This document shows, piece after piece, positions 597 through 21,155 of a stretch of DNA of 22,804 nt; position 1 is the first letter of the stretch, and each line of letters begins with the position of its first letter. The stretch comes from a virus. Both the position numbers and the translations under genes were made by a program. The notes below the pieces were generated by a model. It searched no databases. It was not told the DNA's origin and worked only from the letters and a program-made list of their open reading frames with translations. The DNA is taken from positions 1-22,804 of IMG/VR virus record IMGVR_UViG_3300042691_044433; one strand, given 5' to 3'.

Positions 597-851
597 TCAG
601 CAGTTCCACGCCCGGAGGGACTTGTTGATGCGGGAGTTGGGATCGTTGGCCGTCTTCGCGGAGGTGAGCTTCTTCTTCATGCCCTTCATGCGGGCACAGA
701 AGCTATCCCGGCGGGGACCACCCTCAGGCTGAGGCGCCTTGAGACCGGGCTTCCCCGGGTTGGCCCTATTGTAGGAGGCGCGGCCCTTGGCATTGAGACC
801 CCCCTTGGGGTTCTTGCCTTCGGCGCGCTGCCACGCGGGGGTCTTAGCCAT
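597..851 (-). CDS. DUF6321-like small basic protein (84 aa)
   Basis: An 84-residue protein with the segment TPAWQRAEGKNPKGGLNAKG, then RASYNR, then DSFCARMKGMKKKLTS, ending NDPNSRINKSLRAWNC. These blocks (WQRxEGKNPxGGLNAKGRAS, SFCARMxGM and a C-terminal R-W-x-C) match the DUF6321 type of phage protein. Cys52 and the terminal Cys84 are conserved-looking and could pair or bind metal. The role is unknown. The start at 851 is favoured because the family begins at the TPAWQR block and because GGAG sits eight bases upstream. An in-frame start farther upstream would add 47 residues of out-of-frame phosphoesterase sequence. Its first eight bases (ATGGCTAA) overlap the end of the metallophosphoesterase gene. 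Confidence 0.8.
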   Translation of the reverse strand: MAKTPAWQRAEGKNPKGGLNAKGRASYNRANPGKPGLKAPQPEGGPRRDSFCARMKGMKKKLTSAKTANDPNSRINKSLRAWNC

Positions 852-1590
852 ATGCCTGCTCCAAGCTGCGGGTGCTGATGAATTCCCAGCCCCCGTGAGG
901 GAAGCCCCCCGACACACCCTTAAGTAGTGTAACCCCGGAGGTCCACATGGACTGGGCTGGCCCAGCATACCCTTCTTTTTGGGTGGGGTCAAGGTAGCAC
1001 CCGGCCACCAGCCCCATCATCTTGTGTTTGCCCTTGCGCACCGCCACGTCCCAGATGTGAGAGTGGCCCATGATGCAAGAGCGGTACTGCTTCTTGAGGA
1101 GGGTGGCGGCGGGGTACTCCCCACCCACGCTCTTCCCCATGACCCCCGTCACGAAGTAGTGGGAGGCTGCCATCCCCTTCACCTCGTACTCCTCAAGGAA
1201 GGGAACTACCTCCCACCCCTGCAGGAAGAGGTTGGCAGTACTAAGGGTACCCTGCAGCTCGGGGACGTTGTCCAGCGCCCTGTCAATGCGGGCCTCGTGG
1301 TTCCCCATGAGGAAGACCTTCTTGCCCTTCCACTCCCCCAAGGTGCGCAGCGCCACGTTGGCAGCCTCGATGTCGGCGGCTACCGTGCGGCCATCGAAGG
1401 AGGCCTTGCGCTTCCCGCTCCCCGTGAGGCTGCTCCCATCGTAGCTGCTGAGGGAGGGCATGTCCGCCAGATCCCCAAGACAGAGGAGCATGTCGGGGGT
1501 GGTGTCCTGCAGGTACTTGAGGAGCCAGCGGAAGCGGCGGGGGTTGACCCCGGGGCGGGCATGGGAGTCCGGCAGGACCAGTATGTTCAC
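844..1590 (-). CDS. Calcineurin-like metallophosphoesterase (248 aa)
   Basis: All the metal-binding blocks of the calcineurin-like phosphoesterase superfamily are present in order: D8-x-H10 (LPDSHAR), GD at 39-40 (LGDLAD), GNHE at 96-99, His144 (ASHYF) and GHSH at 175-178. Such enzymes use two metal ions to hydrolyse phosphomono- or diesters. The version with 'DMPSLSSYD' after the GD motif and the SHYF block is frequent in phages; its substrate is not known to me. The start is GTG at 1590, giving a GTGA overlap with the fusion gene upstream and placing LPDSH directly after a first beta strand. The open frame reaches 1683, but that extension overlaps the fusion gene and has no family sequence. 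It ends the glycan-type cassette, so a phosphorylated sugar, lipid or nucleotide substrate is possible but unproven. Confidence 0.9.
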   Translation of the reverse strand: MNILVLPDSHARPGVNPRRFRWLLKYLQDTTPDMLLCLGDLADMPSLSSYDGSSLTGSGKRKASFDGRTVAADIEAANVALRTLGEWKGKKVFLMGNHEARIDRALDNVPELQGTLSTANLFLQGWEVVPFLEEYEVKGMAASHYFVTGVMGKSVGGEYPAATLLKKQYRSCIMGHSHIWDVAVRKGKHKMMGLVAGCYLDPTQKEGYAGPAQSMWTSGVTLLKGVSGGFPHGGWEFISTRSLEQAYG

Positions 1591-3755
1591 TTGAAGACCT
1601 CCTTGAGGCTGGGCAGATCCTGCTTCTTGTCCCCCAAGATGAGCTTCCAGATGGTGGGTCCCACGCCCTCCCCGTGGCACCACACCCTGATACCCATCTG
1701 ACGGGCATTCTCGAAGAAGTACTGGGCGTCCTGCGAGGCCGCAATGAGTTCCCCGGTACTCCAGAACTTCTTGTCGGTCTGCCCGATGGTGATGTGCATG
1801 TACTTGGGGCGGCCCTGCTCATCCTTGGCCGTCTTGTCGATCTGCCCCTCGGGGTAGCAGAAGTCGAAGCCGAAGAGGTGGAACTCGCTGTACCCCAAGG
1901 ACTGGGCAAGGGAGAGGGCCCTCCACGCAGCACACGTCCCCCCGTTGATGAGGAGGCTGCCCTCCGGGAAGACCTCGCTCTTGATGAGGGCCTGCGTCAT
2001 TGCATGCCAGCCCCACACGTTCTTGGTCTTCGACATCACGTGCTTGGTGACAGAAGGATCCGACATGGAGGCCACCAGCACCTTCGTGCTAGGGGGGATG
2101 TCCTCAAGGAGGTCGGTGCGCTTGATGCCGTGGGTGGAGATCCCATCCACCGCCCGGGGATCCAGCAGGACGAGGTACTCGGGATCCACGCCCCACCCCA
2201 CCACCGTGGGGAGCGAGTGCTTCACCACCGCGATGTCGGCACCCTCGCGCCACATCTTGACGATCTTGTCCTTGCGCTTGTGGATGTCGGGGCCCGCCGA
2301 CACGATGAGGAGCTTCCTGTCGTGGGGCTTCGCCTTGGTGATCCACCTCTTCAGCAGGCCAAGGTTCTCCTTGACGTTGTTGATGATGTGGTCCTTGGGC
2401 ATGCAGTCTTGGGCCGTAACCTTGAGAGGCATGGCGCCCATACCCGCCGGGGGAAGGTCCGGGAGACCCTCACCCACCGCAGCGATGTTGACGATGCCGC
2501 CGCCCTGCACCGCGTCCTTCGACTTGTACACCTTCTTTTCGCGGAGAATGGTGGTGAAGGTGACTTCCACTCCACGGAACTCTGCGGCGGGAATCCCCCC
2601 GGCGTTGTCGGGGGTGTAATAGTCGTCGAAGACCACCACGGGAATGCGCTTGCACATCTCCCAGTCGTGTGCGATGGTCTCCACCGAGTGGCCCCCATCA
2701 AGCCACGCGAAGTCCACGCCGGGCACCTCCCGCAGCGTATCCTTGGTGTCACCCTTGGTGAGGTAGAAGTCGAAGTGCTTGCCCTTCTCCTTCATCGCGA
2801 GGCCGAAAGCGTGGAGCTTTGCCGTCACCTCCTCCAAGGAGAAGTGCTTCTTGACGTTGTGCTCCTTGGCATCGGTGTCCGCTGAGGCTTCCTCGAAGAG
2901 GTCATACCCATGGTAGACAACGTGGTCCCATTTCCCAAACGCAACCTGCGCCATCTGGATGGCCCGATCACCATTCCATGTGCCGGTTTCGAGGATGGTG
3001 CGTGGCATGTAGTGCTGGACGAGAGCCAGCAACTGGTCGTATCGGGTCTTCAACCCGTTGATCACCTTGTTCTTCCGGGCGCCCTTGAGGTGGGTGAAGA
3101 CCTCCTTGAGGGGGCTATTCTCAAAAGCGTCGAGCCCCACGTAGTTGGGGTCCACGAGGTTGACGGCTTCCAGCCCATGCAGCTTGTGCATCTGGAGGAC
3201 GCGCTCGAAGATGAAGGCGTCGGTCCACTCGCTGTAATTGAAGATCTCCCCGCTCATGTACAGGTCGTACATGTCGGCGATGACGGTGCGCCCCTCGTTA
3301 CCGGCGAAGTAGATGAAGCCGGTCTCGCTATAGTTGATGCCCTTGCGCCCGAGGTGGGTGACGTGGCCCTTGCACATCTCGCTGAGCCAAGCGATGGTGA
3401 GGGGCTTGGTGGTGATGACGTCGCCGTCGAGCCAGAGGAAAGGCTCTGGATCCTTGGCGGCATCATGGAGAGCGAAGACCTTTGCGCAGAATTTGAGGGC
3501 GTCGAGTCGGTAGTTGTATCCCTCGGGGGTCTCCCCATTCTTATCCGGGTGCTGGGTGCGGAAGGCGGTGAATCCTTCCACTTCCTCAAGACGTTTCACG
3601 GTGACAGCGCGATGCCCGCACGTGATCTCCGAGGGGTCCATCCCATCCACGTAGATGGTGAGTGAGATGTTGGAGTCCCAGAGGCGGGTTGACTCAAGGA
3701 AATTCTTGCCGTAAAGGTCCCAGCCCTTCGGCCCCCAAGAAGTGACGATCTTCAT
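1587..3755 (-). CDS. Glycosyltransferase / SAM methyltransferase / DUF115 three-domain fusion (722 aa)
   Basis: Three modules can be read. Residues about 1-225 look like a nucleotide-sugar glycosyltransferase with a DxD motif (WLDGD, D110 and D112) and the acceptor-side block 'NYSETGFIYF'. Residues about 235-400 are a class I methyltransferase of the Methyltransf_24 type: motif I E256-TGTWNG, then FAWLDGGHSVET (D353, H356) and FDDYY (377-380). Residues about 475-640 are a DUF115/MptE-like Rossmann domain: LLIVSAGPD (482-490), GGTCAAWRALSLAQSLG (605-621) and HLFGFD (626-631). DUF115 also occurs in Maf-type flagellin glycosylation proteins. Together they suggest building and methylating a glycan, perhaps on virion proteins or the host surface. 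The ATG at 3755 overlaps the stop of the preceding glycosyltransferase (ATGA), and the stop overlaps the phosphoesterase start. No frameshift is seen; the domains form one continuous frame. Confidence 0.85.
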   Translation of the reverse strand: MKIVTSWGPKGWDLYGKNFLESTRLWDSNISLTIYVDGMDPSEITCGHRAVTVKRLEEVEGFTAFRTQHPDKNGETPEGYNYRLDALKFCAKVFALHDAAKDPEPFLWLDGDVITTKPLTIAWLSEMCKGHVTHLGRKGINYSETGFIYFAGNEGRTVIADMYDLYMSGEIFNYSEWTDAFIFERVLQMHKLHGLEAVNLVDPNYVGLDAFENSPLKEVFTHLKGARKNKVINGLKTRYDQLLALVQHYMPRTILETGTWNGDRAIQMAQVAFGKWDHVVYHGYDLFEEASADTDAKEHNVKKHFSLEEVTAKLHAFGLAMKEKGKHFDFYLTKGDTKDTLREVPGVDFAWLDGGHSVETIAHDWEMCKRIPVVVFDDYYTPDNAGGIPAAEFRGVEVTFTTILREKKVYKSKDAVQGGGIVNIAAVGEGLPDLPPAGMGAMPLKVTAQDCMPKDHIINNVKENLGLLKRWITKAKPHDRKLLIVSAGPDIHKRKDKIVKMWREGADIAVVKHSLPTVVGWGVDPEYLVLLDPRAVDGISTHGIKRTDLLEDIPPSTKVLVASMSDPSVTKHVMSKTKNVWGWHAMTQALIKSEVFPEGSLLINGGTCAAWRALSLAQSLGYSEFHLFGFDFCYPEGQIDKTAKDEQGRPKYMHITIGQTDKKFWSTGELIAASQDAQYFFENARQMGIRVWCHGEGVGPTIWKLILGDKKQDLPSLKEVFK

Positions 3756-4513
3756 CGGTAGAGGTCCACCACATGTTTCCAGTTGAAGTACTCATGTTCC
3801 ACCAGCGCCTTCTCCGCATTCCAAGCGGCGGCGTAGGGGACGTCCTTGTAGTTGGGGAACCACGGTCCCCCGTCAGTGAAGTGCACGGCCTTCGGGCTCT
3901 CGTAAGAGTAGCGCGTGGTGGGACTGTGATATGGAAGCCAGTTCCACGTCTCGTCGATTTCCCCTATGGAGTCCGTCCACTCGAAACCGTGCAGCCACGA
4001 CCCCTTCTGTGTGTTGACTGCTTCGAGGTCCAGCTTCCGGCAGTGGGGGTGCATCGGATTCAGAACCATGAGGGAGGACCACAGTTTGCGATGGTACTGT
4101 GTCTGAGCCACCCCATCCATCTTGATGGATTCTTTGGGAGCAAACTTGTGCTTCACCACCGAGACTGCCACATCGGGGTCACAGAATTGGAGCATCTTCT
4201 TGATGTCGTCGAAGAAGATGAAGTCGCAATCCACGAAGACCACAAGGTCCTCGATGCCGTGCCTCTGGGCGATGTGGGGTACGAGGAAGCGCGAAAAGGA
4301 GAACTCCGTAGAGAACGGGCGCCCGTCCCCCACGTCGATCATCTGGTTGCCTTCCCGATAAGATGTGCGCCAATACTTCCCTGCAGCCTTCAGAGAATCC
4401 AGCTTGAGGGGGGTGACGACACAGGGGACGCTACAATGCCGCTTGACGCTATGCGCGGCTACCTTGTAGGCGATGTCCTCCCTAGAGTCATAGCCAATGA
4501 AGATGTGCAGCAT
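3752..4513 (-). CDS. Glycosyltransferase, GT8-like (253 aa)
   Basis: The protein starts MLHIFIGYDSREDIAYKVAA, the usual opening of phage and bacterial GT8-like transferases, and carries a DxD motif in VVFVDCDFIFFDD (D95, D97) that would bind the metal and nucleotide-sugar. A later TDSIGEIDETWNWLPY stretch followed by AVHFTDGGPW resembles the C-terminal HF-G-KPW region of GT8-type enzymes. No signal peptide or membrane segment is visible, so it should act in the cytoplasm. An in-frame TAA lies three codons upstream of the ATG at 4513, which fixes the start. No Shine-Dalgarno precedes it; instead a promoter-like sequence ends right at the ATG. It is the first gene of the cassette and overlaps the next gene by ATGA. 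Donor and acceptor sugars cannot be told from sequence. Confidence 0.85.
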   Translation of the reverse strand: MLHIFIGYDSREDIAYKVAAHSVKRHCSVPCVVTPLKLDSLKAAGKYWRTSYREGNQMIDVGDGRPFSTEFSFSRFLVPHIAQRHGIEDLVVFVDCDFIFFDDIKKMLQFCDPDVAVSVVKHKFAPKESIKMDGVAQTQYHRKLWSSLMVLNPMHPHCRKLDLEAVNTQKGSWLHGFEWTDSIGEIDETWNWLPYHSPTTRYSYESPKAVHFTDGGPWFPNYKDVPYAAAWNAEKALVEHEYFNWKHVVDLYR

Positions 4514-4549: not shown

Positions 4550-4695
4550 GACCTTTTGTTGAAGAGGTCGAAGAGGGTCTTGATCTTTTCTTCCACCACG
4601 GCCAACCGGTTGTCCATCTTGGCGAGGAGTATGACGAGGGTGACGAAGCCCAGCCCCAAAGGCCAGAGCCTCGATACGATTTCCACAAAGTCCAT
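4546..4695 (-). CDS. Single-pass membrane protein, holin- or spanin-like (49 aa)
   Basis: A short gene translated as MDFVEIVSRLWPLGLGFVTL, then VILLAKMDNRLAVVEEKIKT and LFDLFNKRS. Residues about 9-25 form one hydrophobic membrane segment, and residues 26-45 form a charged amphipathic helix or short coiled coil with heptad-like hydrophobics. Tiny proteins of this design are common among phage lysis or virion-associated genes, but I cannot assign a function. The start is well supported: its ATG shares one base with the TGA of the giant upstream gene (TGATG). Two longer frames over the same bases give Ser/Trp- or Gly/Arg-rich sequences without protein character. It is the last gene before the 32-bp gap and promoter. 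Confidence 0.7.
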   Translation of the reverse strand: MDFVEIVSRLWPLGLGFVTLVILLAKMDNRLAVVEEKIKTLFDLFNKRS

Positions 4696-7595
4696 CAGAT
4701 CCTCCCGATGCGCTCCATGTACTCGCGCTGCACCACCTTGGGTACCGCATCCTTGCTCTGCGGCTCGATGATCTTCTTGACCTTCTCGCTGATGCCCGAG
4801 TTGAAGGAGGACGGATCTTGGATGATGCGATCCCGGGGGGCCTTGCCCTTGTCCTTCTCCATCACCTCGTTGCGCAGCGCGATGGCCTCCTCCCGGAAGG
4901 CGGGGTCCTTGGTCTGGTAGAATTTGGCCATGGCGACGGCGATCTTGTCGCTGTAGCTGCGGCGCAACCCCTCAGTCTTGGTGCCCAGCTCCTTGGTTTC
5001 GCGCAGCGCTTCGCGGGCCTCGGCCACCTTGGTGGGGGTAAAGCCGATGGCCACCCGGAAGATATCCCCCATGTCCTGCATCTCGCGCGCGGGAAGCACG
5101 GGCTCCAGCTTGCCGGGGCTGATGTAGCCCACTTCCTGCATGGCTTGGCTGCGCGCCGCGTTGCGGAAGGCGATGGGGAAGAGGGAGGCCACGGCCATGA
5201 GGTCCATGCCCTTCCGATGGTACATCACCGCATCCTCGATGCCACCCTTCACCGCCCCCATGAGGGGACCCATGTTGAGGAGGTCGAGGCTGAGGAGATT
5301 TTCGGGGACGACGTCGAGGGCCGTCCTCTTGGAGATGTCGATGCCCGTGGCGCGGAACGGCCCGTTGAGGACATAGTCGGCCAGCTCGGCGGGGGTCCCC
5401 ACGAAGGACAGCTCCGGCACCTCCTTGAAGAGCTGCTGGATGGTCTCCCGCAGTTCGGCCTTGAGGGCGGTGGGAGTCATGCCCAGCTCGGGCCCCACCT
5501 CCCTGAGCAGCTTGTCGAGGAGGTCACCCACGGGGGCGGCGAAGGGAAGACCCCAGAGGCCCGCCGTGGCGAAAAGCCCCAAGAGGTGCAGGGACATCAC
5601 CTTCTTGCCCACGTCGAGGGACATGAGGCCCTTGCCCCCATAGTATTCCATGGCGCGACGCTGGAAACCCAGCATCTTGAAGGCGAAGGGGGTAAATTGG
5701 AGGGAGAGGCCGCCCACCATACCACGCATGTTGGCGGCGCGAAAGCCCTTTCCCATGGTGAACTGGGTCTCGTTGATGGCCCACTCCACGGCATCGAGGG
5801 GAGTGTTGATGGTATCCCCCGTCCCCTCCGCCATCTTCTGGAGGCGCCCAAAGGACTTCTGGTCCTTGATGAGGTCGTAGGTGGCGAGGGCCGTGGTGAG
5901 GCGGTTCACCGACTCCGAGACGGAGAAGGCGAGGGACATCACCTCCATCACCTTGCCGGTTCCCTTGCCCAGCGCATAGAGGTTGGGGTCTTGGCTGCGG
6001 GCAAGGAAGGAGGGCGCTTGGTCGCGCGTAAGCATGGGCTCGATGGTCCCATTCTTGAACAGCTCCTCCACCAGCCTGCGCCTCTCGTCCCCCTTGATGG
6101 CATCGAAGTTGAAGATCTTCTCGGGGTCCGTGGTGAAGCGGATGCTGCGCAGCACCTCCGTCCCCGCCTTCATGGTCGCGAGGGCCGCCCTGCCCGTGCC
6201 CGCAATACCGGAGAGGAGGGGCCACGTCGTGTGGAGGACCTGCGTGGGCTGCACCAGCGCCGAGGAGATGTTGCCCCCGATGGTGTAGAGGTAGGCGAGG
6301 CCCTTCAGCTTGGCCGTGAGGGAGTCATCGCTGTGGAGGTAGCGCTCCGCATCCTCCGCGATCTGCTTCACTTGGGGGTTCTTGATGGCGTTGATGGTCT
6401 CGCGCCGCCCCAGCTCGGTGGCCTTGTTGGCGACCCAGTCCGTCATCGTGAAGGTGTAGGAGGGGAAGGTGCTGCGGAAGTAGCTGCTGAAGTTGTCCTC
6501 GCGCAGCCAGCCCGGCACATCCCGGCGACGCCGCAACCTTCCTTGACGCCCATGCTCCGCCTCGCTGCGAAGCCGCTCGATGACCTTCTTGGTCTCCTCG
6601 TAGGCGTTCTTCTTGCTGGGCACCATGATGCTCTGGAAGAGGGCGTCGATGGAGCTGAGGCTGTCCACGTCGGGGACGTAGGCCTCCATGAGTTCGCGCT
6701 CCTGCTGGAGGTCCCTCACCCGCACATTCTTCATGCCCGCCTTCTGCATCTCGGCGCTGCGCTGCATCGCCCTCTTGCGGGAAGTGCGGAGGCCCCCGGC
6801 ACCCAGCGCGGCCTCGAAGCCTTCGATGACCTTCTCCCCGCCGTTCTTGGCGAGGTTGGCCTGCAGCCTCTTGAGTTCCCTCTTGTCGGCCTCGCTGAGG
6901 GCCCCGACCTGCAGGGCATCGATCTTCTTCTGGGCGAGGGCGGGATCGAAGTACTCCACCGCGAAGCGGCCCCGGCGCACCTGCGGGAAGTAGTTCTCGC
7001 GCCGCGCCTCCTCCAGCATGCGGATGGTGGCCCTGTCGGTGGCGTTGGGGATGGCCTTCGTCTCGATGTCGGGGTCGTAGCCCAAGGAGGCCTTCACCGA
7101 CTTGATGATGTTGTCGTAGATGTGGTCGAGGACCTCGGCGGAATCCTTGCGCACCGCATTCAACTTGGGGTTGAGGGTGAAGCTCTCGCCCTTCTTGAGG
7201 CCCACGAGGTCGTCGGCGGCAGTGATGGTGTAGCTGCCATCTGCATTCTCGGCGCCCTTCATGCCCGCATTGAGGGCTTCCACCACCTTCATGATGGAGG
7301 CGGAGTCGGCATCGTTGAGGTTGCTGACGGCGCGGATGGTGGGCTGGTACATGTGGGCGAAGCGGGCGCGGATCTTCTCGCCCAGCTTGACGAGGTTGAC
7401 CCACGGCTTCAGCTCGGGGAATACCGACGCCTGATTGTCGATGGCGATGAAGGAGTTGGCGAACTGCTGGCACAGGCCCAACTGCTTGAGGAGGCTGGGG
7501 TTGTTGTCCTTCAGCTCGGCAGTGCGACGCAGGGCCAAGGCCTCCTGCATCTGCCTGCTGATGACGCCAGACTCTTGGGGATTACAGACGGCCAT
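4695..7595 (-). CDS. Giant internal virion / ejection protein, PLxRFG-like polyvalent type (966 aa)
   Basis: A very long, mostly helical protein. The block 'YTIGGNISSALVQPTQVLHT' (about residues 435-455) and the later 'LQFTPFAFKMLGFQRRAMEY' (about 620-640) resemble the hallmark region of PLxRFG-type and related large polyvalent proteins, which phages package and probably inject with their DNA. A hydrophobic patch at about 665-690 (HLLGLFATAGLWGLPFAAPV) could enter a membrane. The N-terminal part is charged and coiled-coil-like. Its position after the transglycosylase and another giant protein fits the T7-like order of internal core proteins, though there is no plain similarity to T7 gp15 or gp16. 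I chose ATG 7595 (MAVCNPQ), two bases after the upstream stop; GTG codons at 7601 (GTGA overlap) and 7607 are alternatives. Confidence 0.65.
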   Translation of the reverse strand: MAVCNPQESGVISRQMQEALALRRTAELKDNNPSLLKQLGLCQQFANSFIAIDNQASVFPELKPWVNLVKLGEKIRARFAHMYQPTIRAVSNLNDADSASIMKVVEALNAGMKGAENADGSYTITAADDLVGLKKGESFTLNPKLNAVRKDSAEVLDHIYDNIIKSVKASLGYDPDIETKAIPNATDRATIRMLEEARRENYFPQVRRGRFAVEYFDPALAQKKIDALQVGALSEADKRELKRLQANLAKNGGEKVIEGFEAALGAGGLRTSRKRAMQRSAEMQKAGMKNVRVRDLQQERELMEAYVPDVDSLSSIDALFQSIMVPSKKNAYEETKKVIERLRSEAEHGRQGRLRRRRDVPGWLREDNFSSYFRSTFPSYTFTMTDWVANKATELGRRETINAIKNPQVKQIAEDAERYLHSDDSLTAKLKGLAYLYTIGGNISSALVQPTQVLHTTWPLLSGIAGTGRAALATMKAGTEVLRSIRFTTDPEKIFNFDAIKGDERRRLVEELFKNGTIEPMLTRDQAPSFLARSQDPNLYALGKGTGKVMEVMSLAFSVSESVNRLTTALATYDLIKDQKSFGRLQKMAEGTGDTINTPLDAVEWAINETQFTMGKGFRAANMRGMVGGLSLQFTPFAFKMLGFQRRAMEYYGGKGLMSLDVGKKVMSLHLLGLFATAGLWGLPFAAPVGDLLDKLLREVGPELGMTPTALKAELRETIQQLFKEVPELSFVGTPAELADYVLNGPFRATGIDISKRTALDVVPENLLSLDLLNMGPLMGAVKGGIEDAVMYHRKGMDLMAVASLFPIAFRNAARSQAMQEVGYISPGKLEPVLPAREMQDMGDIFRVAIGFTPTKVAEAREALRETKELGTKTEGLRRSYSDKIAVAMAKFYQTKDPAFREEAIALRNEVMEKDKGKAPRDRIIQDPSSFNSGISEKVKKIIEPQSKDAVPKVVQREYMERIGRI

Positions 7596-7597
7596 GG

Positions 7598-10504
7598 TCA
7601 CCCGCACGAATAGTCATCTGGGATACCCTTCTCGGCAGCTTCATCTTGCTTGCGCATGCGCTTCATGGTCTTGTCGATGACGTCCTTGCCGCTCTTGGAG
7701 GTGCCCTGCGGGATCTCCCCCTCGGACATCAGCTCCTTGGCCTTCTGCAGGTTCTGGAGGTAGGCTTGGGCTTGCCCCGGCGTCATCTCGGAGATCTGCT
7801 CGCGCGTCAGCCCCGCCGAAAAGAGGTCCGTGCGCATCTTCTGCGTCATCATGAAGGGGGCCCCGGAGGGCTCCGTGATGGGCTTGGGCTGCGCAAAACC
7901 CCGGGCCCCAACCTCCTCCGGCTTCACCCTGCCTACGGGTTCCCTCTGGCGCGCACGATATACCAAGCCAGCTTCCTTGACAACCCCCTGCCTCTCAAGG
8001 GATTGCCAGAGTTCACCAGCCTGCTTCTGCGTGAGCTTCTGGCCCGCCGCCCCCTCCAGATCCTTGAGGGTGAAATTTTTGTTGGGGCTCGCCATGAGGC
8101 GATTGGCCACGGCGCCCCACGTCTGCTCGTCGATCCAGCGCGGCAAATTCTGGGGGCCGCCCTGTACCTCCCGCAGGGGGAAGGTGGTCTCCACGGGCAG
8201 CGGCTGCGGAGCCTCGGGGAATGCACGGGCGCCCCCACGCTCCCCACGAAGCTCGGGGATCTCGCCCCGGAAGGCTTCCTCTTGGGTGCCACTGCGAGGC
8301 TTGCGGAAGGTGCCGTCCTTGCTACGCACGAGGCGCATGGATTCTGGCACCCGCAGCATCCCCGCAGGGGTCACGTTCTTGGCAGGGGCATAACCTTCAA
8401 GGATCTGCTTGAGTTCCTGCATGCCCACGTCGCGGATGCCCGCGCGCTGCAATTCGTTCTGGAGGGCGGGCAGGGAGACGGTGCCCCCCGGAGGAACTTC
8501 CTTGAGGGCGTTTTCGAGGGTGATGGTACCCTGCTGCCCCAGCTTGGGCGTGGGAGGCTGCGTGGGCTGAGCCCTCTCCTGCTCCTCGCGCATCGCCACT
8601 TGGGCGCGCGTCCTCGCCTCCTCGTAGGGCAGCCGGGCAATCTGGTCGAGGCGCAGCCCCGCGCCCTGCAGAGCCTGCGTCTCCTCCTGCGTGAGGGTGG
8701 GCGCCGGAGCCTCCCGCGTAGGAGTCCCCCCGTAGGGCTGGCCGACCATGGGACCAAGCAGTTCACGCTCTTCGCGGCGCTGCTGGAGCGTGGTGTCAGC
8801 CTCGCCCCGGAGGAGGGACTGGGCCTCGGCGAACTGCTCGCGTACCCCCGGGATCTCAAGCATGCCCGGATCCTGCTGCACCTCATCGACGAGACGCTGA
8901 GCCTGCTGGCGCCTATAGGAGGGACCCTGCACCACGTCTTCCGTGGGGGCCACGTTGGGCGCCGTGACTTCGCGAGCCTGCACTTCCTCTTCGGTGCGCA
9001 TCCGCTGCGCCGTATCCACCACGTCGCGCTGGACCCCCGCCTTGAGGACCTTGAGGAGCTGCGGGACGGTGTAGGGCTTGCCGGTCTCCGGGTTGACCTC
9101 TCCCGTCTTCACCACGTCCTGCGCCAACCGGAGGAGGTCCTGCGGGTTGGGCGTGACGGTGGGACCCTTCTTGGTCTCCCCAACGTCGATGCGGATGTTG
9201 TCGAAGCGGTTGGTAGACTCGGCGGCCGCCCTCTTGAGGTAGTCCACTTCGCTGGGCGGAGGCCCCGGGATTATGGGAACTTCTTCGCCCGCGATGCGCT
9301 GTGCTACGTAGGCCTGCTGCTCTTCGGCGCGCTGCCGGTCGTAGGCTTCGCGACCAGCAATGGCACGCTGCATGCGCTCCTGCAATGCCTGCTCTTCGGC
9401 GGCCTTGCGCTGGTTCTCTTCGAGGGTCTGGGCGCGCTGGGCTTCTGCGGCAGCCTTGCTGCGGGCACCCATGGCACCGGCGACGCCACCAACGGGACCG
9501 GCACCCACGCCACCCTTGAGGCCCGCGTTGATGATCTCGTTCCAGTTGATGGTCTTGTCGGCGAGGATGGCGGAGGCCGCCTGATCGAGGAGTTCCTGCG
9601 TGCCCTCCGTGAGCCCCTCAAGGGCCGCAGTCTCCAAGGTGCCGCCGATTGCCCCGCTGATGCCGGGCCTGCCCTTGAGGAGGCGGGCGGAGATGACGTC
9701 GGTGAGCTTGTCGGAGAAGTCGGTGCCCCTCGTCTTGGCAAGGAGGCGCACGGGGCCGATGGTGTCCAGCATGGACTTCATGGTGCCCACGACGAAGGCG
9801 GCGCCCACGTTGTTGACGCCATCATCCGCCAGCGACTGGAAGGACTCGGGGACGTTGAGCAGGGAAGAGCCGAGGAAGGCGCCGCCCACCTGACCCGTAA
9901 GCTGGGAGACACTCTTGACGGCGGCCTCACGCGCAGCCTGCTGGGCGGCGGCAGTGATGGGCTCACCGAGGGCTTGGCGCTCCGCAAGGATGGCGGCTTC
10001 CCTCTTGGCAACTTGGGAGGCGAGGAGGCGTCCGGCCCCGAGGCGGGCACCACTCTCCGCCACCTTGGCGCCCGCCGCAGCAGCACCACCCACGCCAGCC
10101 GTGGCCGCCGTCAGGGCGAGGGAAGGAAGGGCCTCACCCACCGCTTCCCCGAGGAAGGAGAGGGCGGTGCCCACATCCTTGACGTCCTCGTAGGTGACGC
10201 GAGAGGACAGGCCCTTGGCGGCCAGCTCATCCATGCGCTTCTTGTAGGCGGCAAGGTTGCGCTGCGCAGCCTCCTCATACCCCAAGGCCTGCTGGGCCAA
10301 GGCGGGAATGAGTTCCATGGCCGTACCCTTGAGGCCCTCGAAGCCGGAGACCAGACCCCTCTTGAGGGCCCCCGGACCCTCCGGGTTCTTGCCCTCTACC
10401 CAGTCGATGCCATTCCACTCGACGTAGGATGCACCGGGCTTGCCGGTGGCGGGGACCCACTGTTCGCCCGCGTCATCCCACTCAAGTTTGCGGGGAGTTG
10501 CCAT
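7598..10504 (-). CDS. Giant internal virion / ejection protein with possible winged-helix repeats (968 aa)
   Basis: The N-terminal 50 residues are Trp-rich (LEWDDAGEQWVPATGK), followed by an Ala/Gly-rich region with weakly hydrophobic stretches (about 120-150, LPSLALTAATAGVGGAAAAG) and 'EGLTEGTQELLDQAASAI', a pattern frequent in large polyvalent phage proteins. The middle is Gln/Glu/Arg-rich and probably helical. Near the C-terminus two segments look like small helix-turn-helix or winged-helix units (about 700-740 and 825-870; the second has FTLKDLEGAAG, LTQKQAGELW and LERQGVVKE). No catalytic motif is seen. It lies between a coiled-coil protein and a second protein of nearly the same size, which suits a set of co-ejected core proteins. 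ATG 10504 starts six bases after the previous stop, without a clear Shine-Dalgarno. A virion role is inferred from context and family pattern. Confidence 0.6.
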   Translation of the reverse strand: MATPRKLEWDDAGEQWVPATGKPGASYVEWNGIDWVEGKNPEGPGALKRGLVSGFEGLKGTAMELIPALAQQALGYEEAAQRNLAAYKKRMDELAAKGLSSRVTYEDVKDVGTALSFLGEAVGEALPSLALTAATAGVGGAAAAGAKVAESGARLGAGRLLASQVAKREAAILAERQALGEPITAAAQQAAREAAVKSVSQLTGQVGGAFLGSSLLNVPESFQSLADDGVNNVGAAFVVGTMKSMLDTIGPVRLLAKTRGTDFSDKLTDVISARLLKGRPGISGAIGGTLETAALEGLTEGTQELLDQAASAILADKTINWNEIINAGLKGGVGAGPVGGVAGAMGARSKAAAEAQRAQTLEENQRKAAEEQALQERMQRAIAGREAYDRQRAEEQQAYVAQRIAGEEVPIIPGPPPSEVDYLKRAAAESTNRFDNIRIDVGETKKGPTVTPNPQDLLRLAQDVVKTGEVNPETGKPYTVPQLLKVLKAGVQRDVVDTAQRMRTEEEVQAREVTAPNVAPTEDVVQGPSYRRQQAQRLVDEVQQDPGMLEIPGVREQFAEAQSLLRGEADTTLQQRREERELLGPMVGQPYGGTPTREAPAPTLTQEETQALQGAGLRLDQIARLPYEEARTRAQVAMREEQERAQPTQPPTPKLGQQGTITLENALKEVPPGGTVSLPALQNELQRAGIRDVGMQELKQILEGYAPAKNVTPAGMLRVPESMRLVRSKDGTFRKPRSGTQEEAFRGEIPELRGERGGARAFPEAPQPLPVETTFPLREVQGGPQNLPRWIDEQTWGAVANRLMASPNKNFTLKDLEGAAGQKLTQKQAGELWQSLERQGVVKEAGLVYRARQREPVGRVKPEEVGARGFAQPKPITEPSGAPFMMTQKMRTDLFSAGLTREQISEMTPGQAQAYLQNLQKAKELMSEGEIPQGTSKSGKDVIDKTMKRMRKQDEAAEKGIPDDYSCG

Positions 10505-18641: not shown

Positions 18642-19107
18642 GGACGGATACCCACAGGAGGATGCCGAGGAGGAAGCCCACGCAGCACTCCGCCCTCTCG
18701 GTCCACTTGCCCCCGAGGGGTTTGTTGACCGCATAGGCCACCATGAAGAGGATGCCGCCGAGGGCATTGAGGAGGACCCACGGGTTGTGCCACGCGAGGG
18801 GCGCGAGGGAGATTGCCGCCACTGCCACCCCCCAGAGGGCAAGGTAGAAGTGGTCCCTTCCCTTCTCCGTGAGGCCCATGGACTTGTCGAAGTAGGGGAG
18901 GGTCATCGCCGCAAAGACGAAGGGCCACAGCACCGCCAGCTTCCACTGGAGGTAAGCGAGGGGAGCCACGATGAGGGCGCTTGTGACGATACGAGTGATG
19001 CCCGTGCCCACATGGATGCCCACCATGCTGGTAAGCTGATTGAGCGCACCGCCGCGCAGCCGCCAGCAAAACGCGCACCATGCCGCATACAGGAGCCAAC
19101 CGATCAT
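18634..19107 (-). CDS. Multi-pass membrane protein (157 aa), function unknown
   Basis: Strongly hydrophobic throughout, with likely membrane segments at about 1-15, 40-55, 57-72, 88-106, 110-128 and 140-155. Short charged loops separate them, including FCWRLRGGALNQL (13-25) and DKSMGLTEKGRDHF (74-87). The W-R-L-R-G-G block near the N-terminus resembles unannotated phage and bacterial membrane proteins, but no function can be assigned. The neighbouring holin-like gene allows a lysis, antiholin or superinfection-exclusion role; this is speculation. The start ATG 19107 overlaps the fibre gene stop (ATGA). The in-frame extension to 19173 lies inside the fibre gene and is polar, unlike the rest. 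Confidence 0.7.
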   Translation of the reverse strand: MIGWLLYAAWCAFCWRLRGGALNQLTSMVGIHVGTGITRIVTSALIVAPLAYLQWKLAVLWPFVFAAMTLPYFDKSMGLTEKGRDHFYLALWGVAVAAISLAPLAWHNPWVLLNALGGILFMVAYAVNKPLGGKWTERAECCVGFLLGILLWVSVHG

Positions 19108-20714
19108 GGGTTCACCTGCGCGTTGTTGGGCTTCTTCGACTGCACGAACCGCTTGCCAGCAGTCGCCGTCCAAGTGTTGGAGCCGCTAGCGTTGTAGCTG
19201 GAGCTCGACGAGCGCAGCTTGAACCCGCCAGCGGTCTTGTCCGCATGGGTGCCGAAGGTCACGGCGTTTCCGTTGATCGTCAGCGTCGCGGGGTTGCCGT
19301 CCGTCCACACGAATGGCCCATCGGCCGCTGCGTTGCCGGTGAAGGTTCCGCTGGTGGAGACTGCGGTGCTGGTGATGTTGGCGGTCGAGAGGGCCTTGAA
19401 GCCGCTGGGCGGGGTGTATGCGAATGGGCGTTGACCGAAATTGAAATCAGCAACGCCGCCGCTCTCAGCAGAAGCAGCAAAACGATACGGGCCGGTCAGC
19501 CCGGTGAACGCGGCATTCGTGCCAGCTACAGGATCGCCGCTGTTTTGAACGGTGCCGTTCTTGCTGAAATATAGCTTGCCGTTGTCGGCATCGATTATGA
19601 TCCCGATGACATCGCTGGCGACATAGCTGTTCCCATATGAGGTATAGGAGGCTGAATTAACCTTCTGTCCGCTGTAGTAATACGCATAGGTATAGGTGTC
19701 TTGCCCCAGATACCTGTTGGCCGCTGGGTTTGTCGTTCCGGTAATTATGCCGGGGACGAACTCCGCGATATCAGCGCCCATCGTCACTTCGCAGTACCAC
19801 TTTCCAGACGCCATTTGGATTGTGTTGTAGGCTTGCGCATTGCCACCAGTAGCCTTCGTGAAATTCAAATTGGCAGACGCATAGGTTCCAGTCGTGCCGC
19901 TCAAATCAAGCGGATTAAGCGTCGAATAGTTGTTCGTCGGCGTGTCGGTCATCTGGTCGAACGTTACGCCGCTCGTCACCGAAATGCCGCTGGTCGTGAA
20001 GTTGTTGCTGTTGCCAGAGGTGTCGTAGCCGATGGTCGTCGTGCTGGCGGCGTCCTTGAACTGAAGGAAGAAGCCGTTGGTGCCATAGGTGCCGCTGTAC
20101 GCCTTCGGCACCCACACGCCTGTGATGGCGTCGGTCTGGCCGAAGCTAGAAGGCGTCAGGGCTTGGCCGTCTATCATGTAGAAGTTGGCGATGTATCCGT
20201 CGAGATAGGTTCCGTTAACGGTGTCCGACATGATGCGATACGCGGTCGATGCGGCATTTAGGTAGGTATTGGAATTCTGCGTCGGATACGAGCCAGAGAC
20301 ATACGTCATGGCTACGCCATTCCAGTACACCTTCACTCTGTCGGCTGCCGTTGCTTGCGTCGTGTCGACGGCAATGACGAGATGACCCCAAGCCGATGGA
20401 TCTCTGAACAGGCCAGCGAAATTGATGTCATTTGTTGCGTCGTTGCGAACGAAGATCCGACCGGCGCCGCTCGCCAAGTTCCAGCCGATGATTCCGTTGT
20501 TGGCGCTTGAACTGACGATGCCAACCTGAGTGCCTGAAAACAGCGAAGGCGCGGCCTTCATCCACGTCGAATAGGTGACCTTCTTCTGATCGGTCGGGGA
20601 CGCGCCGCTGGTCCGCGACAGGTACGCGCTGTTGCTCGCGCGGAAGCGCAGCGAGTTGGCGATCTGGTAGCCAGCGCCGCTGCCGGCCAGCAAAACTTGG
20701 TGGATTGCGGACAT
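19104..20714 (-). CDS. Tail fibre / receptor-binding protein with LamG-like and SPRY-like domains (536 aa)
   Basis: Residues about 20-190 look like a concanavalin/LamG beta-sandwich (SLRFRASNSAYLSRT, VTYSTWMKAAPSLFSG, WGHLVIAVDTTQ, YLDGYIANFYMIDGQAL). A typical linker TFDQMTDTPTNNYSTLNPLD (251-270) leads into a SPRY-like sandwich at about 300-430 (SGKWYCEV, IGIIIDADNGKLYFSKNG, FNFGQRPFAYTPPSGFKAL). The C-terminus is Ser/Thr/Ala-rich and beta-prone. This order is common in fibre proteins of environmental phages and points to glycan or protein binding on the host surface. Three sampled rows (19801, 19861, 20161) give about 47-52% GC, clearly below the neighbours, which suggests recent acquisition. 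ATG 20714 shares one base with the previous stop (TAATG). No chaperone or peptidase domain is seen. Confidence 0.85.
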   Translation of the reverse strand: MSAIHQVLLAGSGAGYQIANSLRFRASNSAYLSRTSGASPTDQKKVTYSTWMKAAPSLFSGTQVGIVSSSANNGIIGWNLASGAGRIFVRNDATNDINFAGLFRDPSAWGHLVIAVDTTQATAADRVKVYWNGVAMTYVSGSYPTQNSNTYLNAASTAYRIMSDTVNGTYLDGYIANFYMIDGQALTPSSFGQTDAITGVWVPKAYSGTYGTNGFFLQFKDAASTTTIGYDTSGNSNNFTTSGISVTSGVTFDQMTDTPTNNYSTLNPLDLSGTTGTYASANLNFTKATGGNAQAYNTIQMASGKWYCEVTMGADIAEFVPGIITGTTNPAANRYLGQDTYTYAYYYSGQKVNSASYTSYGNSYVASDVIGIIIDADNGKLYFSKNGTVQNSGDPVAGTNAAFTGLTGPYRFAASAESGGVADFNFGQRPFAYTPPSGFKALSTANITSTAVSTSGTFTGNAAADGPFVWTDGNPATLTINGNAVTFGTHADKTAGGFKLRSSSSSYNASGSNTWTATAGKRFVQSKKPNNAQVNP

Positions 20715-21155
20715 TACGAGACTCCGATGCCCGAGATGACCCACTCGGTGTTGGCGATCTTGACGATGGTGGCAATCCCGGCGGCGGCCAACTGCCTGCC
20801 ACCCACCCCCGCATCGAAGGCATTGTAGAGGGTATCGACGCAGGAGATGTCGATGGGCCCCGCCGATGCATGATTGATGAAGGTGATGGCGGTGCCGATG
20901 GCGAAGGCCACCGACGTGTTGCCGGGGATGGTGTAGGTGGCGGTGGAAGTGGCGGAGGCCGGATGGAAGATCTGCTTGCCCGCATCGGCAGAGACGAGGG
21001 AGTAGACGCTGGCCTGCACATTCTGGATGACGCGGGAGATGGCGGCCTTGGCGCCCTCCGGGGTCACGGCTTGGTCGGCGGCAATACCCTCAAGGGTAGC
21101 GGAGGTATCCGCGAGGCGCACGAGACCAGCCGAGGTGTTGGTGGCGCTAGCAATC
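20714..21155 (-). repeat. Fibre C-terminal module, copy A
   Basis: This tract codes for the last roughly 145 residues of the second fibre (from SATNTSAGLVRLADTSATLE to VISGIGVS). It pairs block by block with the end of the truncated fibre at the right edge: SAGLVRLAD, AVTPE, SRV-QNVQA, LVSAD-G, HP-SAT, LAA---ATI-K and ISG-GV are shared. The encoding DNA also keeps short exact matches, for example around the CTGCACATTCT tract, so duplication is more likely than convergence. Confidence 0.75.

Follow-up and report, generated by a model that had tools for sequence, protein, structure and literature searches.

A phage gene that joins glycosyltransferase-, methyltransferase- and DUF115-type domains, and its modular relatives

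The fusion gene and its three domains

We analyzed a 22,804-nucleotide stretch of DNA (the window), which is positions 1 to 22,804 of IMG/VR virus record IMGVR_UViG_3300042691_044433, a virus contig of 22.8 kb. One of its genes is predicted to encode a protein of 722 amino acids (aa) that joins a glycosyltransferase (GT) domain, an S-adenosylmethionine (SAM) methyltransferase domain and a DUF115 domain. A preliminary description of this DNA had reported the reading frame without giving its strand. The frame is intact on the minus strand, with an ATG start and no internal stop, and the plus-strand frame has stops. All of the motifs that had been reported are at the expected residues: D110-G-D112, E256-TGTWNG262, D353-GGH356, S486-AGPD490, G605-GTCAAW611 and F628-GFD631.

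To collect relatives, we used a pattern scan that gave 21 loci and widened this set by further scans. The full-length fusion is present in 25 contigs besides the window (62–93% identity), and all 25 have the same GT-methyltransferase-DUF115 order. The ratio of nonsynonymous to synonymous substitution rates (dN/dS) is 0.12–0.24 for the whole gene in each of seven comparisons of the window with a relative, and 0.07–0.36 for the individual domains. Because these ratios are low, the fusion reading frame is under purifying selection. The preliminary description had noted that separate genes might have been joined by an assembly error; this, or another gene-fusion artefact, is ruled out by the unanimous order and by the low dN/dS in all of the domains.

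The same architecture is present in sequence databases, yet we found no description of it in the literature that we searched. In BFVD, the uncultured phage protein A0A6J7X5Q0 (714 aa) is 32% identical to the fusion and aligns along its entire length; more phage proteins labelled “MptE-like”, of 540–700 aa, rank after it. Sequence searches of PDB with the full-length protein gave no match. Among 50,697 named phage records, the DUF115 part has no match, even at E ≤ 5, and the GT domain alone matches two; fusions from two distant loci (L129 and L144, see below) match named phages only by the GT part, in those same two records. The preliminary description knew of no phage protein with this exact order, and we found none in the open-licence literature in PubMed Central (PMC), but a viral three-domain analogue does exist. 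(An apparent mention of DUF115 in PMC12839542 is DUF1156 and is not relevant.) The analogue is A064R of chlorovirus PBCV-1, a protein of 638 aa whose activities have been assayed and which completes the capsid glycan with methylated rhamnose (PMC9614988). According to the available part of that paper, A064R also has three transferase domains in one protein, with a GT-A domain containing DxD first and a class-I SAM methyltransferase, but the order is GT-GT-methyltransferase, the second GT belongs to another family, and no DUF115 is described. It is from a giant algal virus and acts on an N-glycan; we liken it to the fusion by analogy only.

The preliminary description had proposed three active-looking domains, and each fold is supported, by a model of the GT domain folded alone, a full-length model, Pfam matches and profile comparisons. 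The full-length model was built from 26 sequences and has a mean predicted local distance difference test (pLDDT) of 70.8 and a predicted template modelling score (pTM) of 0.39, so the packing of its domains is not trustworthy. The fold matches below are those that Foldseek ranked, and families outside its list are possible.

Residues 1–230 have no Pfam match at E ≤ 1 and no sequence match in PDB. Because Pfam gave nothing, we folded the N-terminal part alone, and this model is confident (pLDDT 86, pTM 0.84). Its best fold matches are alpha-1,3-galactosyltransferases and blood-group transferases, and glycogenin, GlyE and LARGE1 also ranked. For the bovine alpha-1,3-galactosyltransferase (1g8o), Z is 14.8, the root-mean-square deviation (rmsd) is 3.0 with 185 of 233 residues aligned, and the Foldseek E value is 4.2e-8. 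D110 and D112 do not vary among the 26 close rows or the 8 diverse rows that were aligned, and D110, D112, E144, D179 and H222 are unchanged down to about 29% identity. The model thus supports a GT-A fold glycosyltransferase, and the families that it resembles suggest that the enzyme is probably retaining. Known GT6 and GT8 sequence models do not recognise residues 1–230 (in Pfam or the PDB sequence search), so we call the domain GT6/GT8-like in fold and not a member of either family.

Residues 231–432 match Methyltransf_24 (PF13578) only marginally (residues 255–379, E = 1.2e-5, 26.6 bits against a cut-off of 26.3); relatives score higher, with 37.1, 40.7 and 65.5 bits in loci L142, L140 and L164. 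The methyltransferase part of the full-length model matches COMT and TrmR with Z of about 15, and sugar O-methyltransferases are among many other fold matches (CalS11, Z = 14.6; MycF, 14.2; SpnH, 13.9). E256, D285, D353, H356, D377 and D378 are invariant in all nine diverse intact copies, and we take their roles to be as in MycF-type enzymes. Sequence and model together support a class-I SAM methyltransferase with a complete catalytic signature. The methyltransferase parts of L164 and L140 match phrog_2675, which is labelled as a DNA methyltransferase.

The DUF115 or MptE-like domain spans residues 441–722. Its core is a clear match to PF01973 (DUF115, now named “MptE-like”; residues 456–636, E = 5.7e-16, 59.2 bits against a cut-off of 34.6), and this model is also above its cut-off in all five sister contigs examined and in neither of two named phages. 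From 13 diverse DUF115 copies we built a profile, A6, in which the C-terminal extension is aligned in all 13 copies and Q236 and D237 (profile numbering) are invariant; the model has low confidence in this extension. Against PDB, A6 found first the Magnetospirillum Maf protein 5mu5 (E = 7e-4), and only weakly the pterin pyrophosphokinase MjHPPK (E = 0.39). By fold, the C-terminal part matches 5mu5 with Z of 14.4 and MjHPPK (8sd5) with Z of 13.4 (rmsd 4.0, 179 residues aligned). The alignment with 5mu5 runs across model residues 237–704, two domains, with an rmsd of 14.5. The relationship of DUF115 to Maf that had been proposed is therefore borne out by both profile and fold.

According to the available part of PMC9298399, Maf proteins such as Maf4 of Campylobacter contain a DUF115 core and have been connected with the glycosylation of flagellin. 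The phage fusion has a virion-gene setting and no flagellar setting, so we do not class it as a Maf; it also differs in that it bears an active-looking methyltransferase. Also, we know of no GT-A domain in Maf. MjHPPK and MptE share the Pfam family and the fold with the phage domain, but they are stand-alone pterin pyrophosphokinases.

A modular series among distant relatives

An alignment of the GT domain that included the two named-phage relatives gave 52 distant loci (L128–L179; the best 80 of 130 matches were kept), which we classified by searching with profiles of the three domains. Three of the loci (L129, L130 and L142) have the complete fusion. Five have GT-DUF115 without a methyltransferase (L128 and L143–L146), and in four (L132, L137, L138 and L139) only a remnant of a methyltransferase lies between GT and DUF115. 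L140 has separate genes for the GT and for a methyltransferase-DUF115 protein, with a cytidylyltransferase-like gene in between, and L164 has GT-methyltransferase without DUF115. The remaining 38 loci have the GT alone. Some of the loci are near-identical (L143–L146; L129 and L130; L138 and L139), so these counts represent fewer independent lineages.

The remnant retains the C-terminal strands of the methyltransferase. It is very probably inactive because motif I, the SAM half and the catalytic residues are lost: D353 is H or D, H356 is R, Q or A, D377 is H or R, and D378 is G. We also considered, and rejected, the idea that this middle stretch is a new enzyme: its alignment to the methyltransferase is confined to the final ~50 columns (hhalign probability 47.5, P = 1.9e-4), and neither the SAM half nor the catalytic residues are present.

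In a tree of the GT domain (63 rows, 48 of them different, with several long branches that meet), the link to DUF115 requires one change and the methyltransferase label requires three; L140, which sits inside the DUF115 group, was left out of these counts. The DUF115 forms are joined by a branch with support of 89/90, which is not starred. L128 nests, with starred support, within the forms that bear a methyltransferase, which suggests that it lost this domain. As judged from these relatives, the polypeptide can do without its methyltransferase, and the fusion in the window is one state of a modular series.

Nine DUF115 loci have no live methyltransferase inside the polypeptide, and every one of them carries a separate methyltransferase-type gene in the cassette, among the genes around the GT. 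These nine loci are three lineages, and the substitute differs among them: L128 has an FkbM-type gene; the L132 group has a pair of Methyltransf_23-type genes, one of which scores under the curated cut-off in L132; and L143–L146 have a gene with weak matches to methyltransferases and 2-oxoglutarate oxygenases. Of the 38 GT-only loci, 25 also have an FkbM-type methyltransferase gene in the flank. With the same search seeds, we found no separate methyltransferase gene in the window or in three sister records (G001, G002 and G003), although the seeds were drawn from the distant loci themselves, which weakens this negative.

The surrounding cassette and virion-gene context

In the window, the start of the fusion gene shares 4 nt with the end of a gene for a second GT-like protein (253 aa), and a metallophosphoesterase gene, which probably starts at a GTG (1588–1590), overlaps the stop of the fusion, as it does in G002 (Table 1). 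Because the gene ends overlap, these three genes are probably translated together as a unit. The metallophosphoesterase also adjoins the fusion in G002, G003, L128, L129 and L130, and was not found in G001. Of the 52 distant loci, 40 have a homologue of the 253-aa GT within the fetched flank, in most cases adjacent, and 18 named phage records have one too. Pelagibacter phage Mosig has both a relative of the GT domain and this partner GT, and Caulobacter phages such as CcrColossus have the partner GT. Another conserved neighbour is a small DUF6321 protein (window 597–992, PF19846, E = 8.7e-20), and the G002 copy is 76–88% identical to those of the window and the sister phages.

Table 1. Positions of the fusion gene, its predicted domains and associated genes. 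Positions are in the window unless a locus or record is given.
Feature	Position	Strand	Evidence
GT-methyltransferase-DUF115 fusion, 722 aa	1587..3755	minus	ORF (open reading frame) translation; 25 other contigs full length, order identical
GT-A glycosyltransferase domain, residues 1-230	3066..3755	minus	DxD 110-112 at 3420-3428; H222, K224, G225 invariant
Class-I SAM methyltransferase domain, residues 231-432	2460..3065	minus	motif I 2970-2990; DGGH 2688-2699; FDDYY 2616-2630
DUF115/MptE-like core, residues 456-636	1848..2390	minus	SAGPD 2286-2300; GGTCAAW 1923-1943; FGFD 1863-1874
C-terminal extension of DUF115 part, residues 637-722	1590..1847	minus	conserved QD 675-676
Second GT-like protein, 253 aa, phrog_28018	3752..4513	minus	phrog_28018 E 1.2e-64; weak Glyco_transf_8 E 0.58
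Calcineurin-like metallophosphoesterase	844..1590	minus	PF00149 E 4.4e-6; phrog_221 E 1.8e-32
PLxRFG-domain virion/ejection-type protein, upstream of cassette	4695..7607	minus	NF032893 E 5.8e-32; phrog_11358 E 2.4e-26
GDP-mannose 4,6-dehydratase	L090:14108-15055 (G002); G003:36493-37446; G001:22906-23844		closest PDB 1rpn E 7.6e-105
GT29-like gene	L164:3330-3983; L141:1993-2562; L170:3315-3980		

Other genes of the window also match virion families in PHROG. Among the distant loci, each of the 13 with DUF115 includes, within the sequence that was fetched, a gene for a terminase, a portal (phrog_1216) or a PLxRFG protein, and in five of them (L132, L138, L140, L143 and L144) the start of the portal gene overlaps the end of the fusion gene by 4–8 nt. 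In L164, L170 and L171, a major head protein gene lies upstream. Because the cassette is embedded in blocks of virion genes, and in several gene contexts, a virion protein is the most likely acceptor, as far as gene order can indicate. Separately, we noted a virion structural protein in the window (19104–20744, phrog_19943) that is rich in Ser, Thr, Gly and Asn by eye and is a candidate O-glycan acceptor.

Genes for sugar supply are visible in the larger records. A GDP-mannose 4,6-dehydratase is present in 3 of 33 records, which are exactly the three that exceed 55 kb, and in none of the other 30, which are all 34 kb or less. The G002 copy is 62–81% identical to those of G001 and G003, and in distant loci L141, L151 and L160 such a gene lies near the GT. 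L128 has a gene of the UDP-glucose/GDP-mannose dehydrogenase family, and cytidylyltransferase-like genes are in the cassette of L140 (4576–5112, PF01467, E = 3e-12) and of L174, L176 and L177 (near 735–1532). Directly upstream of the GT in L141, L164, L169, L170 and L171, all of which lack DUF115, is a gene that resembles GT29 sialyltransferases, below the Pfam cut-off. It is possible that this gene is a functional substitute for DUF115; the idea that the two are one family is unsupported (hhalign probability 3.9).

The three near-complete sister records (56.8, 61.2 and 59.6 kb) have terminase, portal, major head protein and DNA polymerase in common, and their best terminase matches among named phages are from Pelagibacter phages (about 41% identity). 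A scan of genome contigs gave no relative, and no host was found. In G002, a Ferritin/Dps-like gene (L090:13641–14063, PF00210, E = 9.5e-20) adjoins the dehydratase and has a homologue in G003. There seem to be intein-like inserts in two DNA polymerase A genes: at L061:8443–10299, a stretch that looks HINT-like by eye splits the gene, and at L092:14385–16712 (G002), the polymerase A matches end near residue 311 and restart near 604.

What the fusion protein may do

We favour, with moderate confidence, the view that the fusion is a phage-encoded, multi-domain assembler of a short, O-methylated glycan whose acceptor is most likely a virion protein. DUF115 would put the first sugar on Ser or Thr side chains, as in Maf; the GT-A domain and the 253-aa GT would then lengthen the glycan; and the methyltransferase would cap a sugar by O-methylation. 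Part of the donor may come from the phage’s GDP-mannose 4,6-dehydratase, as a GDP-6-deoxyhexose precursor. The fusion would hold successive transferases in fixed proportion, with methylation as an exchangeable step that could be provided in cis or in trans. DUF115 is more likely to be a second transferase than the generic domain for “further processing” that had been proposed. The suggestion in the preliminary description of an assembly line thus agrees with the three enzyme folds, the conserved order and the sugar-pathway context, but a fixed three-step line is not the general rule because the methyltransferase is dispensable in relatives. A more specific form of this proposal, which we put forward tentatively, is that the fused GT-A and DUF115 domains are the core of an exchangeable virion-glycosylation cassette of uncultured tailed phages, in which DUF115 would prime the neighbouring portal or ejection protein and a swappable methyl cap, which lineages would delete, inactivate or replace, would diversify the surface.

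Several points weigh against glycan assembly on a virion protein. Maf enzymes use CMP-nonulosonates as donor. Confidence is low in much of the DUF115 half of the model, so that, with the pTM of 0.39, its pocket is poorly modelled, and PF01973 also includes pterin pyrophosphokinases. Virion-context markers were seen in 3 of 39 loci without DUF115, a comparison that is biased because the marker genes were taken partly from DUF115 loci, and phage gene blocks also act as expression units. In G002, about 32 kb separate the dehydratase gene from the fusion, and the enzyme could have another purpose.

The cassette might instead modify a surface glycan of the host (lipopolysaccharide or capsule), so as to exclude superinfecting phages or mask a receptor. 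Surface polysaccharides are usually made with GT, methyltransferase and sugar-nucleotide genes, and in MW202713 a lone GT-domain relative is near a gene annotated as glycosyltransferase tibC and a pyridoxal phosphate-dependent enzyme. We consider a host target rather unlikely, given that exclusion genes would not usually lie among virion genes, with an overlap of the portal gene in several lineages, and that we noticed none of membrane or flippase type in the cassette genes that were scanned. Also, Maf gives a precedent for DUF115 in protein modification, in the available part of PMC9298399. A different role for DUF115 itself would be as a nucleotide-dependent diphosphokinase of the MptE type that activates a sugar or pterin and feeds the GT domain. 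The name of the Pfam model and the fold match to MjHPPK fit such an activity, which nevertheless appears quite improbable because the nearest solved protein by profile is Maf, and because five loci without DUF115 carry the GT29-like gene upstream of the GT instead, although this gene has no convincing homology to DUF115.

We regard as very improbable that the enzyme modifies hypermodified bases of phage DNA by glycosylation or methylation. Phage DNA glycosyltransferases do exist, and the label of phrog_2675 would fit, but the fusion lies among virion genes, the methyltransferase fold resembles COMT and sugar O-methyltransferases, and a scan of G002 genes, short of a full annotation, brought no gene for base hypermodification to notice. 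Glycosylation of a phage virion has precedent: in mycobacteriophages Che8 and Rita, phage-encoded glycosyltransferases are linked with glycans of the major capsid protein, and the available part of that report does not mention a GT-methyltransferase-DUF115 fusion (PMC11256854).

That the methyl step is lost and replaced among relatives is the most informative feature of this family. To our knowledge, few systems of virion glycosylation are known in phages. Here there are natural variants without one catalytic step and a visible donor gene, so the order of the reactions and the role of methylation are open to comparison. If the more specific proposal is correct, then DUF115 would be the phage counterpart of Maf, as a protein-priming O-glycosyltransferase. 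A domain that is familiar from flagellin glycosylation is now found in a phage setting, and a soluble fusion could settle whether it transfers sugar to protein.

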